From the NCBI GenBank assembly GCA_030684395.1, contig JAUXTT010000011.1, positions 124,001 through 188,000 on the forward strand: a DNA stretch of 64,000 bases. Reading direction: 5' to 3'. The stretch's first letter is position 1; the number at the start of each line of letters is the position of its first letter. Below, piece after piece: positions 2,674 through 34,840 of the stretch. The stretch is from Bacteroidota bacterium. GTDB taxonomy: Bacteria; Bacteroidota; Bacteroidia; B-17B0; Aurantibacillaceae. The notes beneath the pieces were generated by a model. That model did not search any database, had not been told where the DNA came from, and saw only the letters and a program-made list of their open reading frames with translations. Position numbers and translations under genes: made by a program.

Positions 2674-3438
2674 ATGTTTCACTTTTTATTACGCACCATA
2701 CCACGGCCAATACTGATCACGTTCAGTTTATGGTTTAGTAAAATTGCCCCTATCATTTATAAAGGAAGTAAATACACAGATCCTATCAGCGGAAAATCGT
2801 ACCGTAAATTTTTACCTTATGGCTATTCCGGAAAAGCGAAACGTAAAAATGTTTTATGCCCGGGGAGCCTGAGTTTAGAACGTCACCGTTTATTGTGGTT
2901 ATATCTGAAAACAAAAACAGACTTCTTTACAAAAAGTTATAAAATGCTTCATATCGCGCCCGAGCAGTGTTTTTATAAATTGTTTAAGGCAATGAAAAAC
3001 CTTGATTACACCACAGGTGATTACAATTCACCTATTGCCGACGTTCATTTCGATTTGCACAACGCTCCTTTTAAAGACAATACTTTTGATGTAATCTTCT
3101 GTAATCACGTATTGGAACACGTAGAGAACGATGCTGTGTGTATGAAAGAACTACATCGGATTATGAAACCGGGCGGATGGGGGATTTTTCAGGTTCCATT
3201 GGATGTTACCAGAGAAAAAACTTACGAAGACCCAACAATTACGAGTGAAGAAGACAGAGAAATACATTTCTGGCAAAAAGACCACGTTCGCTTATTTGGA
3301 TTGGATTATAAAGATCGTTTAGCAGCAGCAGGCTTTGATGTGGCAGTAGATGATTTTGTAAACACTTTAACTCCCGAAGAAGTTGATCGTTATCGTTTAC
3401 CAGCAGGTGAGATGTTGTATGTTTGTAGAAAGAAATAA
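2674..3438 (+). CDS. SAM-dependent methyltransferase, class I
   Basis: The 254-aa protein has a central methyltransferase domain with motif I reduced to MLHIAPEQCFYK, then DYTTGDYNSP and DVIFCNHVLEHVEND, the typical post-I/II region of Methyltransf_11 proteins, and KPGGWGIFQVP. An N-terminal stretch of about 80 residues with a hydrophobic start precedes the fold. The acceptor is unknown; its place before a sugar nucleotidyltransferase and a heptose phosphatase makes a glycan or lipid acceptor plausible, but that is inference. Confidence 0.8.
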   Translation: MFHFLLRTIPRPILITFSLWFSKIAPIIYKGSKYTDPISGKSYRKFLPYGYSGKAKRKNVLCPGSLSLERHRLLWLYLKTKTDFFTKSYKMLHIAPEQCFYKLFKAMKNLDYTTGDYNSPIADVHFDLHNAPFKDNTFDVIFCNHVLEHVENDAVCMKELHRIMKPGGWGIFQVPLDVTREKTYEDPTITSEEDREIHFWQKDHVRLFGLDYKDRLAAAGFDVAVDDFVNTLTPEEVDRYRLPAGEMLYVCRKK

Positions 3439-3454
3439 TGAAAGTGGTTTCGGC

Positions 3455-3535
3455 TACGCTCAACCACCGAGTTTCGATTGCGTGCAACCACCGAGTATAC
3501 CAAAATGAAAGGTGACTGAGCGGAGCCAAAGTCAC
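3455..3535. repeat. Short dispersed palindromic repeat, intergenic
   Basis: Two direct copies of CAACCACCGAG (about 3462-3472 and 3490-3500) are followed by an imperfect palindrome GTGACTGAGCGGAGCCAAAG ending in GTCAC (about 3510-3533). The TGAGCGG...AAAG core resembles the CCTGAGC...GAAGG repeat family found elsewhere in the window. Confidence 0.5.
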
Positions 3536-3543
3536 AACAAAAA

Positions 3544-4263
3544 ATGATAAAAGAAGCCATTATATTAGCAGGGGGATTTGGAACACGGTTACAATCGGTT
3601 ATTTCAGATGTGCCTAAACCAATGGCTCCTGTTAGCAATGAGCCTTTCCTGAATTATTTATTGAGCTACCTTTCTCATTACGGAATAACAAAAGCCGTTC
3701 TTTCCACCGGTTATCTTGAAGAAAAGATTAGGGAATATTATCAGAAAAAAAATAACACTTGGAAAAACATTACACTCTCCTACTCTCACGAAAAAAAACC
3801 ATTAGGAACAGGTGGTGCTATCCGTCAGGCAATGGAGCAATGCGAGGGTGAATATGTTTTAGCAGTAAATGGTGATTCTTTTTTCGATGTGAACCTGAAT
3901 GATCTTTATTCAAAACACTCGTCTCATCATGCTCAGCATACACTTGCATTAAGACATGTTTCAAATGCATCACGCTACGGGGCAGTTGAAACAAAGGAAT
4001 GCAGAATAGTTTCTTTCAAAGAAAAAGAAGACACGCAAAAACCCGGAACGATTAATGGTGGTATTTACATTCTTAAAAAAGAAGATTTCATTAAAGCGAC
4101 TGAAACGGGAATTAATTTTTCTATTGAACGTGACTTTTTTGAAAAACAATTAGCACAACAGCATATTTACGGTTTTGAATACACCGGACAATTTATAGAC
4201 ATAGGAACGCCCGAAGATTTTATACGAGCACAAGATGAGTTTAAGTACTTTACATATAGATAA
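3544..4263 (+). CDS. hddC: Sugar-1-phosphate nucleotidyltransferase, HddC-like (heptose 1-phosphate guanylyltransferase)
   Basis: The 239-aa protein begins with the nucleotidyltransferase signature ILAGGFGTRLQSVISD followed by VPKPMAPV, and has VNGDSFFDVNL for the metal-binding Asp and GTGGAIRQAM after it. This close spacing and length match D-glycero-alpha-D-manno-heptose-1-phosphate guanylyltransferases rather than the longer GlmU or GMP enzymes. Its 3' end overlaps the next gene, a GmhB-like phosphatase, by 29 bp; the two catalyse neighbouring steps of GDP-heptose synthesis, which supports the call. gmhA and hddA are not in the window. Confidence 0.75.
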   Translation: MIKEAIILAGGFGTRLQSVISDVPKPMAPVSNEPFLNYLLSYLSHYGITKAVLSTGYLEEKIREYYQKKNNTWKNITLSYSHEKKPLGTGGAIRQAMEQCEGEYVLAVNGDSFFDVNLNDLYSKHSSHHAQHTLALRHVSNASRYGAVETKECRIVSFKEKEDTQKPGTINGGIYILKKEDFIKATETGINFSIERDFFEKQLAQQHIYGFEYTGQFIDIGTPEDFIRAQDEFKYFTYR

Positions 4264-4774
4264 AACCTGGACACTTTTTTTGGACCGGGACGGTGTGCTT
4301 AATAAGCGCATTGTTGATGGTTATGTAAAAAAATGGGATGAGTTTGAATTTTTGGAAGGTGTGCTGGATGCCTTAAAAATTTTTAATGAAAAATTTGGAA
4401 GGATAGTAGTTGTTACCAATCAACAAGGTATTGGCAAAGGTGTAATGAGAATAGAAGACCTTGAACTCATACACAAAAACATGGTGTATGAAATAACTTA
4501 CTTTAAAGGAAGAATTGATAAAGTATATTTCTCGCCCTATTTAGCTGCTGAAAATCATCCTACCCGCAAACCACAAATAGGAATGGCTTTGCAAGCACAA
4601 AAAGATTTTCCTGAAATTGATTTTGCTAAATCCCTAATGATCGGTGATTCCAAAAGCGATATCGAGTTCGGAAAAAATGCAGGAATGAAAACAGTTTGCA
4701 TTGGAAAAGAAAACAAAGGCAATGCGGATTTTTTGTTTGAAACACTGATTGACTGCGCAAAAGGTTTAAACTAA
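4235..4774 (+). CDS. gmhB: HAD-family D-glycero-D-manno-heptose 1,7-bisphosphate 7-phosphatase-like
   Basis: The 179-aa HAD phosphatase has motif I LFLDRDGVLN (nucleophile and acid/base Asp), motif II VVTNQQGIGKG, and motif III/IV region MIGDSKSDIEFGKNAGMKT. The RDGVLN and TNQQGIG forms are characteristic of the GmhB/histidinol-phosphatase group. It starts inside the 3' end of hddC (29-bp overlap), so the two are co-translated. The Cys-rich Zn loop of classical GmhB is not evident (SPYLAAENHPTRKP replaces it), as in Zn-free relatives. A histidinol phosphatase role is possible, but the hddC context favours heptose. Confidence 0.72.
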   Translation: MSLSTLHIDKTWTLFLDRDGVLNKRIVDGYVKKWDEFEFLEGVLDALKIFNEKFGRIVVVTNQQGIGKGVMRIEDLELIHKNMVYEITYFKGRIDKVYFSPYLAAENHPTRKPQIGMALQAQKDFPEIDFAKSLMIGDSKSDIEFGKNAGMKTVCIGKENKGNADFLFETLIDCAKGLN

Positions 4775-9699: not shown

Positions 9700-10131
9700 T
9701 TATTTATACTTTAAGCTAATTTCTAATTTCTCGTAATTCACAATTGCTTTATATTCGTGCAACAAATCACTACCTACAACACCGTCAATTGGAGCTAATC
9801 CAACACGTATATATGATTCGTTTACATGAGAAAGATCTAAAAATACGGCATGGTAATTTTTTATAATCAAATCTTCCAACTGAATTTTTTTTAATTCAGT
9901 AACGTGACTCTTCATACTCGTAGTTCCCAAGCCGGTCGACAATTGCTCATTCTCCTGCAAGTTAGCAATTTTTACGAATTTCTCCATTCTGTTCACATCA
10001 AAAACTGTTCGGGAAGCACCTGTATCAACCAGCAAATTGGCAACTTTACCATTTATTTTTGCCTTTACACATAAATGATAACCATTGTTCTCAATGTTTA
10101 GCAATTTAATTTTTACTATGGTTTTAGTCAT
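9700..10131 (-). CDS. Retropepsin-like aspartic protease family protein
   Basis: Starting at the ATG at 10131, the product is 143 aa. It has one aspartic protease half-site, LLVDTGASRTVF (Asp36), and a second conserved segment DGVVGSDLLHEY. One half-site means it would act as a dimer (clan AA, gag-asp-protease-like). An upstream in-frame ATG at 10185 would add 18 residues, but the inner start is preceded by a strong SD-like AGGAGGG about 8 bp away, unusual in this organism, and begins the conserved fold. Its substrate is unknown. Confidence 0.78.
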   Translation of the reverse strand: MTKTIVKIKLLNIENNGYHLCVKAKINGKVANLLVDTGASRTVFDVNRMEKFVKIANLQENEQLSTGLGTTSMKSHVTELKKIQLEDLIIKNYHAVFLDLSHVNESYIRVGLAPIDGVVGSDLLHEYKAIVNYEKLEISLKYK

Positions 10132-33055: not shown

Positions 33056-33194
33056 TATATGTTTTTGCATATAAAACTTGTAATTTTGTACAAATTATAT
33101 GCTTTTACATATAAAACTTGCAAAATTATACAAATTATATGCTTTTACATATAAAAAATTGTACTTTTGTATAAGTTATATGTAAAAGCATATA
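33056..33194. promoter_or_regulatory. Four-fold palindromic operator array of the hipBST operon
   Basis: Four copies of the 18-bp palindrome TATATG-N6-CATATA lie at 33056-33073, 33096-33113, 33136-33153 and 33177-33194, spaced 40, 40 and 41 bp. Spacers are TTTTTG, CTTTTA, CTTTTA and TAAAAG, so the last is inverted. A -7 element TACTTTTG (33162-33169) lies between the third and fourth, and a second one TAATTTTG at about 33081. The last palindrome ends 7 bp before the hipB ATG. The pattern fits HipB autorepression. Confidence 0.85.
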
Positions 33195-33201
33195 AAAAAA
33201 T

Positions 33202-33450
33202 ATGAAAACCTTAGCTGAATTCGTAAAAGCAGAAAGAAAAAAATCCAAACTCAGTCAAGCTGAATTTGCTGAACGTGCAGGCGTTGCTTTAACAGTTGTC
33301 CGGAAAATAGAGCAAAGCAAAGGCAATTTGAATCTCGAAAAAGCCAATCAGGTTTTAAAAATGTTCGGACATGAGTTGGCTCCGGTAAGCATCAAAGAAT
33401 TAGCAAAAAAAAATGGACTAAACAATGAGACAAGCAGAGATATACTATAA
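33202..33450 (+). CDS. hipB: HipB-type XRE-family antitoxin / repressor
   Basis: The 82-aa helix-turn-helix protein (KLSQAEFAERAGVALTVVRKIEQ) is the DNA-binding part of a toxin-antitoxin system. HipB dimers bind palindromic operators; here four such palindromes lie immediately upstream, so it should repress its own operon. The gene overlaps the next, hipS, by 26 bp. Its C-terminal tail (AKKNGLNNETSRDIL) may contact the partners. Confidence 0.88.
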   Translation: MKTLAEFVKAERKKSKLSQAEFAERAGVALTVVRKIEQSKGNLNLEKANQVLKMFGHELAPVSIKELAKKNGLNNETSRDIL

Positions 33451-33757
33451 AGATGCTTTAGCAGGCATTCTCTCCGAGACAGATGGTGGTGAATATACTT
33501 TTGTTTACGATGCAAATTATATGGTAAAGTATCCAAAACAATTTATCACCTTCACTATGCCTGTTAGCGAAAAAGTCTATACTGAAAAACGATTGTTTCC
33601 ATTCTTTGAAGGCCTGATTCCGGAAGGGTGGTTATTAGACATAGCATCTAAAAGTTGGAAAATAAACAGAAATGATCGCATGGGGTTACTCTTAGCCTGT
33701 TGTCATAATTGTATAGGTGCAGTAAGCGTTAAACCAATTACTAAAGAAGATGAGTAA
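33425..33757 (+). CDS. hipS: HipS-like protein (separate HipA N-subdomain)
   Basis: The 110-aa protein matches only the N-terminal subdomain 1 of HipA (YKDALAGILSE, FEGLIPEGWLLDIASKSWKI, RMGLLLACCHNCIGAVSV). In classical HipA this is fused to the kinase; here it is a separate gene, as in the hipBST system of E. coli O127, where HipS, not HipB, is the antitoxin that neutralises HipT. That role is inferred from organisation and length. It overlaps hipB by 26 bp and hipT by 8 bp. Confidence 0.85.
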   Translation: MRQAEIYYKDALAGILSETDGGEYTFVYDANYMVKYPKQFITFTMPVSEKVYTEKRLFPFFEGLIPEGWLLDIASKSWKINRNDRMGLLLACCHNCIGAVSVKPITKEDE

Positions 33758-34700
33758 GAAGTGTTTATATTGTTATAAAGCTATTGATGAGTCAATAGAA
33801 GGAGACTTTCATGAAAAGTGCAGTCAGGAATTTTTCGGAATGAAACAAGCACCCCTACTGACTTACTCATTTGATCAAATGGCTGAATTAGCAAAAAATG
33901 TTGTCGAAAGAAGCGTTGCTGTTCCGGGTGTCCAGCCAAAGCTATCTTTATCATTGGTGAAAGAAACATTAGCAAATGGATCTGCGGGTCGTTTAACTGT
34001 TGTTGGTGCATTGGGGGGTAATTACATTTTAAAACCGCCATCGGAAGATTATAAAGAAATGCCACAAAACGAGCATGTAACTATGCGCATTGCTGAAGCT
34101 TTCGGAATGCGTACGGTTAAATCAAGTTTAATAAGATTACAGTCAGGCGAATTAGCATACATCACCAAACGGATTGATCGAACGGCAAAAGGAGAGAAAA
34201 TTCACATGATTGATATGTTCCAGATTTTAGAAGCGTTTGATAAATACAAAAGCTCCATGGAGAAAGTGGGTAAAGCTTTAGGTGAATATTCTGATGATAC
34301 CTTATTAGATAAGCTTTATTTTTTTGAGTTAAGCATTTTTAGCTACCTAACCGGAAACAACGATATGCATCTGAAAAATTTCTCTATGATAAATATGGGC
34401 ACAAAATGGGCTTTATCTCCGGCTTATGACCTGCTAAATGTAAATATTGTAAATGCACAGGATACAGAAGAACTTGCACTTACTTTGGAAGGAAAAAAGA
34501 AAAGGTTGAGAAAAGATCATTTTGAAAGGTTTGGGAAAGGTCTGGATCTTACAGATAAACAAATTGAAGGTGCGTTTAAACGCTTTATACAAAAAAAAAC
34601 AACGGCCATACAATGGATAGATAATTCCTTTTTATCAGATGATTTTAAAGATAAGTACAAGGCTATACTCGAGCAAAGGTATACGGTGCTGTCTCGATAA
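33750..34700 (+). CDS. hipT: HipT-like kinase toxin
   Basis: The 316-aa protein has an N-terminal CxxC zinc-finger-like segment (CLYCYKAIDE ... FHEKC), the Gly-rich loop SVAVPGVQPKLS (residues 55-66), ATP-binding Lys95 (YILKPP), catalytic NNDMHLKN (Asp205) and metal-binding Asp227 (SPAYDLLN). It is a HipA-type Ser/Thr kinase lacking the N-subdomain, which is HipS. HipT of E. coli O127 phosphorylates tryptophanyl-tRNA synthetase; the target here is unproven. In place of the SxS autophosphorylation motif before GVQPKL it has A57-V-P59. Confidence 0.87.
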   Translation: MSKKCLYCYKAIDESIEGDFHEKCSQEFFGMKQAPLLTYSFDQMAELAKNVVERSVAVPGVQPKLSLSLVKETLANGSAGRLTVVGALGGNYILKPPSEDYKEMPQNEHVTMRIAEAFGMRTVKSSLIRLQSGELAYITKRIDRTAKGEKIHMIDMFQILEAFDKYKSSMEKVGKALGEYSDDTLLDKLYFFELSIFSYLTGNNDMHLKNFSMINMGTKWALSPAYDLLNVNIVNAQDTEELALTLEGKKKRLRKDHFERFGKGLDLTDKQIEGAFKRFIQKKTTAIQWIDNSFLSDDFKDKYKAILEQRYTVLSR

Positions 34701-34787: not shown

Positions 34788-34817
34788 TTGGAGTTTTTCA
34801 AAAAAGATGTATATTTG
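34788..34817 (+). promoter_or_regulatory. Promoter for the rimP-nusA-infB operon
   Basis: TTG (34788-34790), 19-bp spacer, TATATTTG (34810-34817), a near-ideal Bacteroidetes promoter 59 bp before the rimP start. Confidence 0.65.
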
Positions 34818-34840
34818 CACTCGAAAATAAAAAACAAACG

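Follow-up and report, generated by a model that had tools for sequence, protein, structure and literature searches.

The 64,000-nt stretch of DNA analysed here (the window) carries four evenly spaced palindromes directly in front of a toxin-antitoxin operon, and we consider it very probable that they constitute the autoregulatory operator array of hipBST. Pairs of hipBST operators, at hipBST spacing but without hipBST, recur in viral genomes and mobile elements. We propose, with evenly balanced confidence, that Bacteroidota phages, jumbo phages included, and mobilizable elements carry operator pairs specific to two HipB subfamilies as DNA decoys or anchors that would capture HipB or HipB-HipS-HipT.

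The operator array and the genes behind it

A scan of the window found TATATG-N6-CATATA in four exact copies, starting at 33056, 33096, 33136 and 33177 and spaced by 40, 40 and 41 bp (Table 1), as the preliminary description had reported; shuffles of the window yielded a mean of 0.02 copies and never reached four, and across the entire 4.87-Mb genome the 18-bp palindrome is confined to these sites. The inversion claimed for the last core is borne out, TAAAAG in O4 standing against CTTTTA in O2 and O3, as are the 7 nt between O4 and the hipB ATG at 33202. The two TAnnTTTG boxes had also been placed correctly, at 33081 (TAATTTTG) and 33162 (TACTTTTG). Because a box of this form lies at a set distance from an operator in homologous promoters, TACTTTTG is the probable -7 element of the hipBST promoter; TAATTTTG is probably a duplicated relic. 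The repeat that had been seen between the palindromes (AAACTTG...TACAAAT) is confirmed for spacers one and two: at 82% identity they exceed every other adjacent pair among the 62 compared across homologous promoters. It is weaker in the third spacer, which shares only 61% identity with its neighbour. Judged by these identities, the fourth operator copy, the O1 unit, looks like a local duplication.

Three overlapping genes, spanning 33202-34700, encode a predicted HTH protein, a free-standing HipA N-domain and a HipA_C kinase. By their domains, by their closest solved structures, which are HipT, HipS and HipB of Legionella pneumophila (Lp), and by the E-x-W motif of HipS, we classify the operon as a tripartite HipBST of the Legionella type and not as hipBA. 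The earlier reading of a Hip toxin-antitoxin promoter with HipB operators unlike those of hipBA is upheld; the gene order is hipB-hipS-hipT, with Couple_hipA and HipA_C in separate genes instead of HipA as one polypeptide. The best solved relatives of HipT are HipT(Lp) 8ezr, 7vkb and 7wcf (E 1e-44 for 8ezr, compared with 3e-18 for 7ab3, the HipBST of E. coli O127). HipT contains NNDMHLKNFS and SPAYDLLN, and its Gly-rich loop, SVAVPGVQPK, has only the first Ser of S-psi-S. HipS carries an EGW motif (E67, W69); the E-x-W motif of E. coli O127 HipS (E63/W65) blocks the HipT toxin (PMC10627512). The recognition helix of HipB, GVALTVVRKIEQ, is kept in 90 of 90 relatives. Beyond the operon, rimP (identified by family search) and nusA and infB (read from translations) lie 3' of hipT, and TATATTTG at 34811-34818, directly 3' of hipT, is a probable -7 box for a rimP-nusA-infB operon.

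Table 1. Operators, promoter boxes and genes of the hipBST locus (positions in the window)
Feature	Position	Strand	Description
Operator O1	33056..33073		TATATG-TTTTTG-CATATA, exact match; extra fourth copy, putative local duplication
TAnnTTTG (-7 like) box TAATTTTG	33081..33088	+	In the O1-O2 spacer; from sequence
Operator O2	33096..33113		TATATG-CTTTTA-CATATA; counterpart of the first operator in the family's three
Operator O3	33136..33153		TATATG-CTTTTA-CATATA; 5' of the -7 box, where a -33 element would fall
Predicted -7 element TACTTTTG (TAnnTTTG)	33162..33169	+	8 bp behind operator
Operator O4	33177..33194		TATATG-TAAAAG-CATATA; ends 7 nt 5' of hipB ATG
hipB	33202..33450	+	82 aa, HTH_3, recognition helix GVALTVVRKIEQ; PF01381; TIGR03070 just under cut-off; PDB HipB(Lp) 8ezt
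hipS	33425..33757	+	110 aa, free-standing HipA N-domain (Couple_hipA); PF13657, TIGR03071; PDB HipS(Lp) 7vkb_B
hipT	33750..34700	+	316 aa, HipA_C kinase toxin without N-subdomain; PF07804

A conserved array across Bacteroidota

A HipT search supplied 80 homologous loci from Flavobacterium, Pedobacter, Dyadobacter, Sphingobacterium, Tenacibaculum and many MAGs, and in their hipB promoters the TATATG palindrome recurs with a phase of 40 bp (103 cases), 39 bp (14) or 41 bp (5). The operators are 18 nt long, with 6-nt arms around an N6 core, and stand at even intervals 5' of hipB; they number three in 56 of 81 promoters, two in 21 and four in three, namely this window, Dyadobacter bucti (L046) and Botryobacter ruber (L101). 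Operators commonly start at -98, -58 and -18, the last of them abutting the start codon in most relatives. The spacers between neighbouring operators are unrelated, with a median identity of 48% over 62 pairs; a TAnnTTTG box lies inside an inter-operator spacer in 42 of the 81 promoters, exactly 6 bp behind the operator in 39 of these 42.

Because relatives have kept operators and phase while their spacers diverged, we read the array as old and selected, beyond local duplication. Were the array mainly the result of a 40-bp promoter unit having recently been copied in tandem, with functionless number and spacing, the 82% identity of the O1-O2 and O2-O3 spacers and the recurrence of units at 40 bp would be accounted for, but one would not expect about 80 relatives to hold the 40-bp phase despite unrelated spacers, three operators to prevail among their promoters, a second subfamily to retain 40/41 bp between palindromes of another sequence, or phages to keep the phase without a promoter; we therefore regard this account as highly improbable. 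The conserved phase refutes duplication as the sole explanation of the array, and we prefer it for the fourth copy alone. Of the roughly threefold duplication of a promoter unit suggested earlier, the extra unit (O1-O2 versus O2-O3) survives and the remainder does not, and an array private to this genome is contradicted by the homologous promoters, which share both palindrome and phase. Exact TATATG pairs are rare outside lineages with a close hipBST: none was present in 394 further genomes sampled from all over Bacteroidota, a null that we reject as proof of absence because most relatives' operators carry one mismatch.

HipB as the probable reader of the palindromes

HipBST also occurs as a second subfamily, which shares this architecture but has two to five copies of TATACC-N6-GGTATA, spaced by 41 bp in 23 cases and 40 bp in 16 (tallied by hand); its HipT is about 44-51% identical to that of the window. 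The helix VALTV(V/I)RK pairs with TATATG/CATATA in 90 of 90 loci and the helix VG(L/I)RF-R(E/D) with TATACC/GGTATA in 20 of 20, minor variants included in both. Because recognition helix and palindrome switch together between the two subfamilies, HipB almost certainly reads the palindromes, and the Legionella HipB does bind three evenly spaced 18-nt operators 5' of hipBST (PMC10653801). The operator consensus can be extended to TATATG-Y-N4-R-CATATA, a Y/R core rule that holds in 183 of 186 hipBST operators. In a third HipBST subfamily the operator is AATCAC-N8-GTGATT, with copies about 60 bp apart. One locus of the second type (L277; G869:C227:3481-4380) combines a decayed toxin with an intact operator array, in that its hipT has two in-frame stops and lies behind five operators, four of them exact and one degenerate.

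Orphan operator pairs in phages

We scanned the 2.9 million viral contigs of IMG/VR for a TATATG pair, allowing spacings of 38-43; exact palindromes were demanded in the pair searches, and all counts are consequently lower bounds. The pair occurs in 25 contigs, at 40 bp in 22 and at 41 bp in three, with no hipB, hipS or hipT near the pair in any of them. Thirty-one other spacings together produced five contigs, as did the reversed motif over 31 spacings, which corresponds to an approximately 80-fold enrichment per spacing of TATATG pairs at 40/41 bp over the controls. If phages carry HipB sites, the operator of the second subfamily should also be found in them at its own spacing, and a search of the same collection for the TATACC pair in the form derived from the bacterial loci, with spacings of 38-44 allowed, bore this expectation out: 68 contigs contain it, at 41 bp (49), 40 bp (18) or 42 bp (1). 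One of these (L228) is a real hipBST promoter and the other 67 are orphan, so that the two types together comprise 92 orphan-pair contigs in 65 flank clusters, the fetched loci being devoid of hipB, hipS and hipT. The Y-N4-R core, which was absent from the search pattern, is present in 34 of 38 TATATG and 83 of 92 TATACC viral operators, and the two types differ in their preference for 40 or 41 bp in the same direction as in bacterial promoters. Pairs of the third operator, AATCAC-N8-GTGATT, were not found in viral contigs, and a search of these for HipT relatives confirmed none.

Whole-record scans revealed one TATATG pair per record and few further operator-like sites. Within one phage family, a relative (L178) differs in spacer and cores but still holds both operators at 40 bp, with one mismatch, whereas the element is missing from two further relatives (L176, L177); for another phage family, protein-neighbour searches yielded few relatives. 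The 25 TATATG contigs include Tenacibaculum phage PTm1 (224,680 bp, host T. maritimum), in which the pair (183779-183836) follows one annotated gene by 7 bp and precedes the next by 20 bp. When named phages were compared at the DNA level, the match was exact for PTm1/PTm5, and L205 emerged as distant kin of Lak megaphages; among the orphan-bearing phages, host assignment is firm for PTm1 alone. A 366-kb jumbo phage (IMGVR_UViG_3300020154_000003; L126, L215) carries pairs of both types, TATATG at 179536 and TATACC near 86262. Two related viral contigs (L143:6449-6518 and L146:2767-2836) carry the TATATGCTTTTACATATA palindrome twice, in identical copies that follow a tRNA-Leu gene directly and are 52 bp apart; this is the same operator at a spacing about one helical turn wider.

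Placement of the viral pairs

The viral pairs are mostly intergenic and mostly behind stop codons. Of 37 pairs between co-directional genes, 29 lie closer to the preceding stop than to the following start (median 18 versus 86 bp, approximate distances because viral ORFs were called mechanically); nine pairs lie between convergent genes and two between divergent ones. In one contig (L141) the pair fills a 66-bp gap separating two tRNA genes. Inspection by eye of type-1 phage spacers detected no TAnnTTTG box. In one family a circularly permuted tmRNA (Rfam RF04321; L123:6532-6740 and L135:10368-10575) encloses an orphan pair, apparently in its intervening segment.

Since phages retain the phase although no obvious promoter accompanies it, we infer that 40/41 bp probably reflects protein-protein contact on DNA and not promoter geometry. 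Sites directly behind stops, between tRNA genes and inside a permuted tmRNA would be transcribed, and such positions speak for RNA elements, either processing hairpins or terminators, in place of protein-binding DNA sites. We nonetheless consider this reading most unlikely and reject it on the C/A core ends, which would be unpaired in RNA, occur in eight of 38 and 31 of 92 operators and still obey the Y/R rule of hipBST operators; moreover, a hairpin or terminator offers no reason for an exact spacing of 40/41 bp, and in hosts O1 and O2 are placed 5' of the promoter. The main alternative to a decoy or anchor function is that the pairs are operators or roadblocks through which host HipB controls phage genes: about half of them lie between co-directional genes, where a bound complex could stop read-through, but neither a consistent promoter nor a consistent neighbour gene accompanies them, and their proximity to upstream stops and the excess of convergent over divergent settings run counter to it. 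We consider such control unlikely and favour decoys or anchors.

HTH_3 proteins are encoded in three of 25 and four of 50 viral records, counts on which we rejected a phage-encoded HTH_3 as the reader, and HipA_C was clear among 47 whole viral records only in that of L228. Given how few such genes there are, and with the limit that many records are fragments, the reader of the viral pairs would usually be host-derived.

Orphan pairs in cellular genomes

Genome searches with the DNA pair alone led to hipBST promoters in four of eight genomes for TATATG and in five of seven for TATACC. The six orphan cases in cells, for which the surrounding genes were assigned from translated ORFs, comprise three pairs in mobilizable elements that encode a relaxase and a primase (L185, L186, L188), one close to a recombinase-like gene and an excisionase-like HTH (L261) and two in chromosomal surroundings (L187, L258), the former without an evident mobile element. 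The mobilizable element of L185 adjoins mnmE and bears as cargo a third-type hipBST (3212-4741) in addition to its orphan TATATG pair (9999-10056). The TATACC pair of L258 (1501-1559) lies 8 bp behind a pseudouridine-synthase-like gene and 5' of a higBA-like toxin-antitoxin pair; at the cut-off used, no HipT relative was found in that genome.

Three of the four flavobacterial genomes with orphan TATATG pairs likewise lack detectable hipB/hipT homologs. Such hosts fit elements that travel from one host to another, yet they leave room for a different reader. A regulator other than HipB, common to hosts, phages and mobile elements, would explain pairs in these genomes, but it would have to be reconciled with a palindrome that changes along with the HipB recognition helix across two subfamilies, occurs in the genome of the window solely at hipBST and, in DNA-only searches, leads to hipBST more often than to anything else; we think such a regulator quite unlikely and retain HipB as the probable reader.

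A model for the array and the orphan pairs

From the conserved sequences, the matching of helix to operator and the spacing of the orphan pairs, we infer binding, cooperativity and repression as follows. HipB dimers would bind each TATATG-N6-CATATA palindrome, and at the fixed 40-bp phase HipB or HipB-HipT(-HipS) on neighbouring operators would touch each other, so that HipB, alone or with HipT and HipS, would occupy adjacent operators cooperatively and repress hipBST. The promoter-proximal operator pair straddles the probable -7 box; full occupancy would shut the promoter, and protein on the whole array would extend over it from the -33 region as far as the start codon. The usual array has three operators, and duplication of one unit would have produced four here. 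Paired operators, we posit, have spread without toxin-antitoxin genes into Bacteroidota phages and mobilizable elements, where host HipB would bind them as decoys or anchors. With a pair in every genome copy, a phage that replicates would come to exceed the single chromosomal array in number and pull HipB or toxin complexes onto phage DNA; the hipBST operon would then be derepressed, or the toxin could be held neutralised and DNA-bound. The benefit to the phage is the least certain part of this explanation.

The comparisons extend HipBST operators from Legionella to the whole of Bacteroidota and point to selection on the 40/41-bp phase, not on the spacer. If the proposal is true, HipBST would act against phages and mobile elements. 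The role of HipBST is disputed, and decoys would point to its physiological opponent; they would also be a counter-measure to HipBST built of double-stranded DNA sites, neither protein nor RNA, and hence a type of anti-defence invisible to gene-based searches. Any toxin-antitoxin system that regulates itself could be examined with the same kind of pattern scan for orphan operator pairs.

Comparison with known systems

Phages counter toxin-antitoxin systems with antitoxin mimics and inhibitor proteins, that is, with RNAs or proteins, whereas the candidate agent here is a double-stranded operator pair of 58/59 bp. The literature searched, which omits most subscription journals, contained no description of orphan operator pairs from toxin-antitoxin systems, or of such decoys, in phages.

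According to the preliminary description, E. coli hipBA has four operators of the form TATCC-N8-GGATA. The HipBA system of E. coli K-12 resembles the window in its HTH antitoxin, its HipA-fold kinase and the several palindromic operators in its own promoter, but its HipA is unsplit and its operator arms measure five nt (PMC10653801). HipBST of E. coli O127 shares the tripartite order, the E-x-W motif of HipS and repression by HipB (PMC6581861, PMC10627512), which in the window is predicted; it is less similar, as the HipT E values above indicate, and the Legionella operator motifs are absent from it (PMC10653801).

On sequence grounds, HipBST of Legionella pneumophila is a better comparison than E. 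coli hipBA. It matches the window in gene order, in domains and as the source of the best solved relatives of HipT, HipS and HipB (PMC10653801; also PMC9325769), and its homologs are reported to be widespread in Bacteroidota (PMC10653801). Three evenly spaced 18-nt operators, again with 6-nt arms and an N6 core, lie 5' of its hipB (PMC10653801); outside hipBST the operator motif occurs only 5' of a duplicated locus, with no orphan copies reported (PMC10653801). The inter-operator gap is 53 bp in Legionella and 22 bp in the window (a 40-bp phase); Legionella O2 and O3 are asymmetric, whereas the four operators of the window are all perfect; and Legionella O1 lies 24 nt 5' of the start codon, compared with 7 nt for the last operator here. 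The array is, in short, the known HipBST operator set of Legionella with a tighter phase and a fourth operator.
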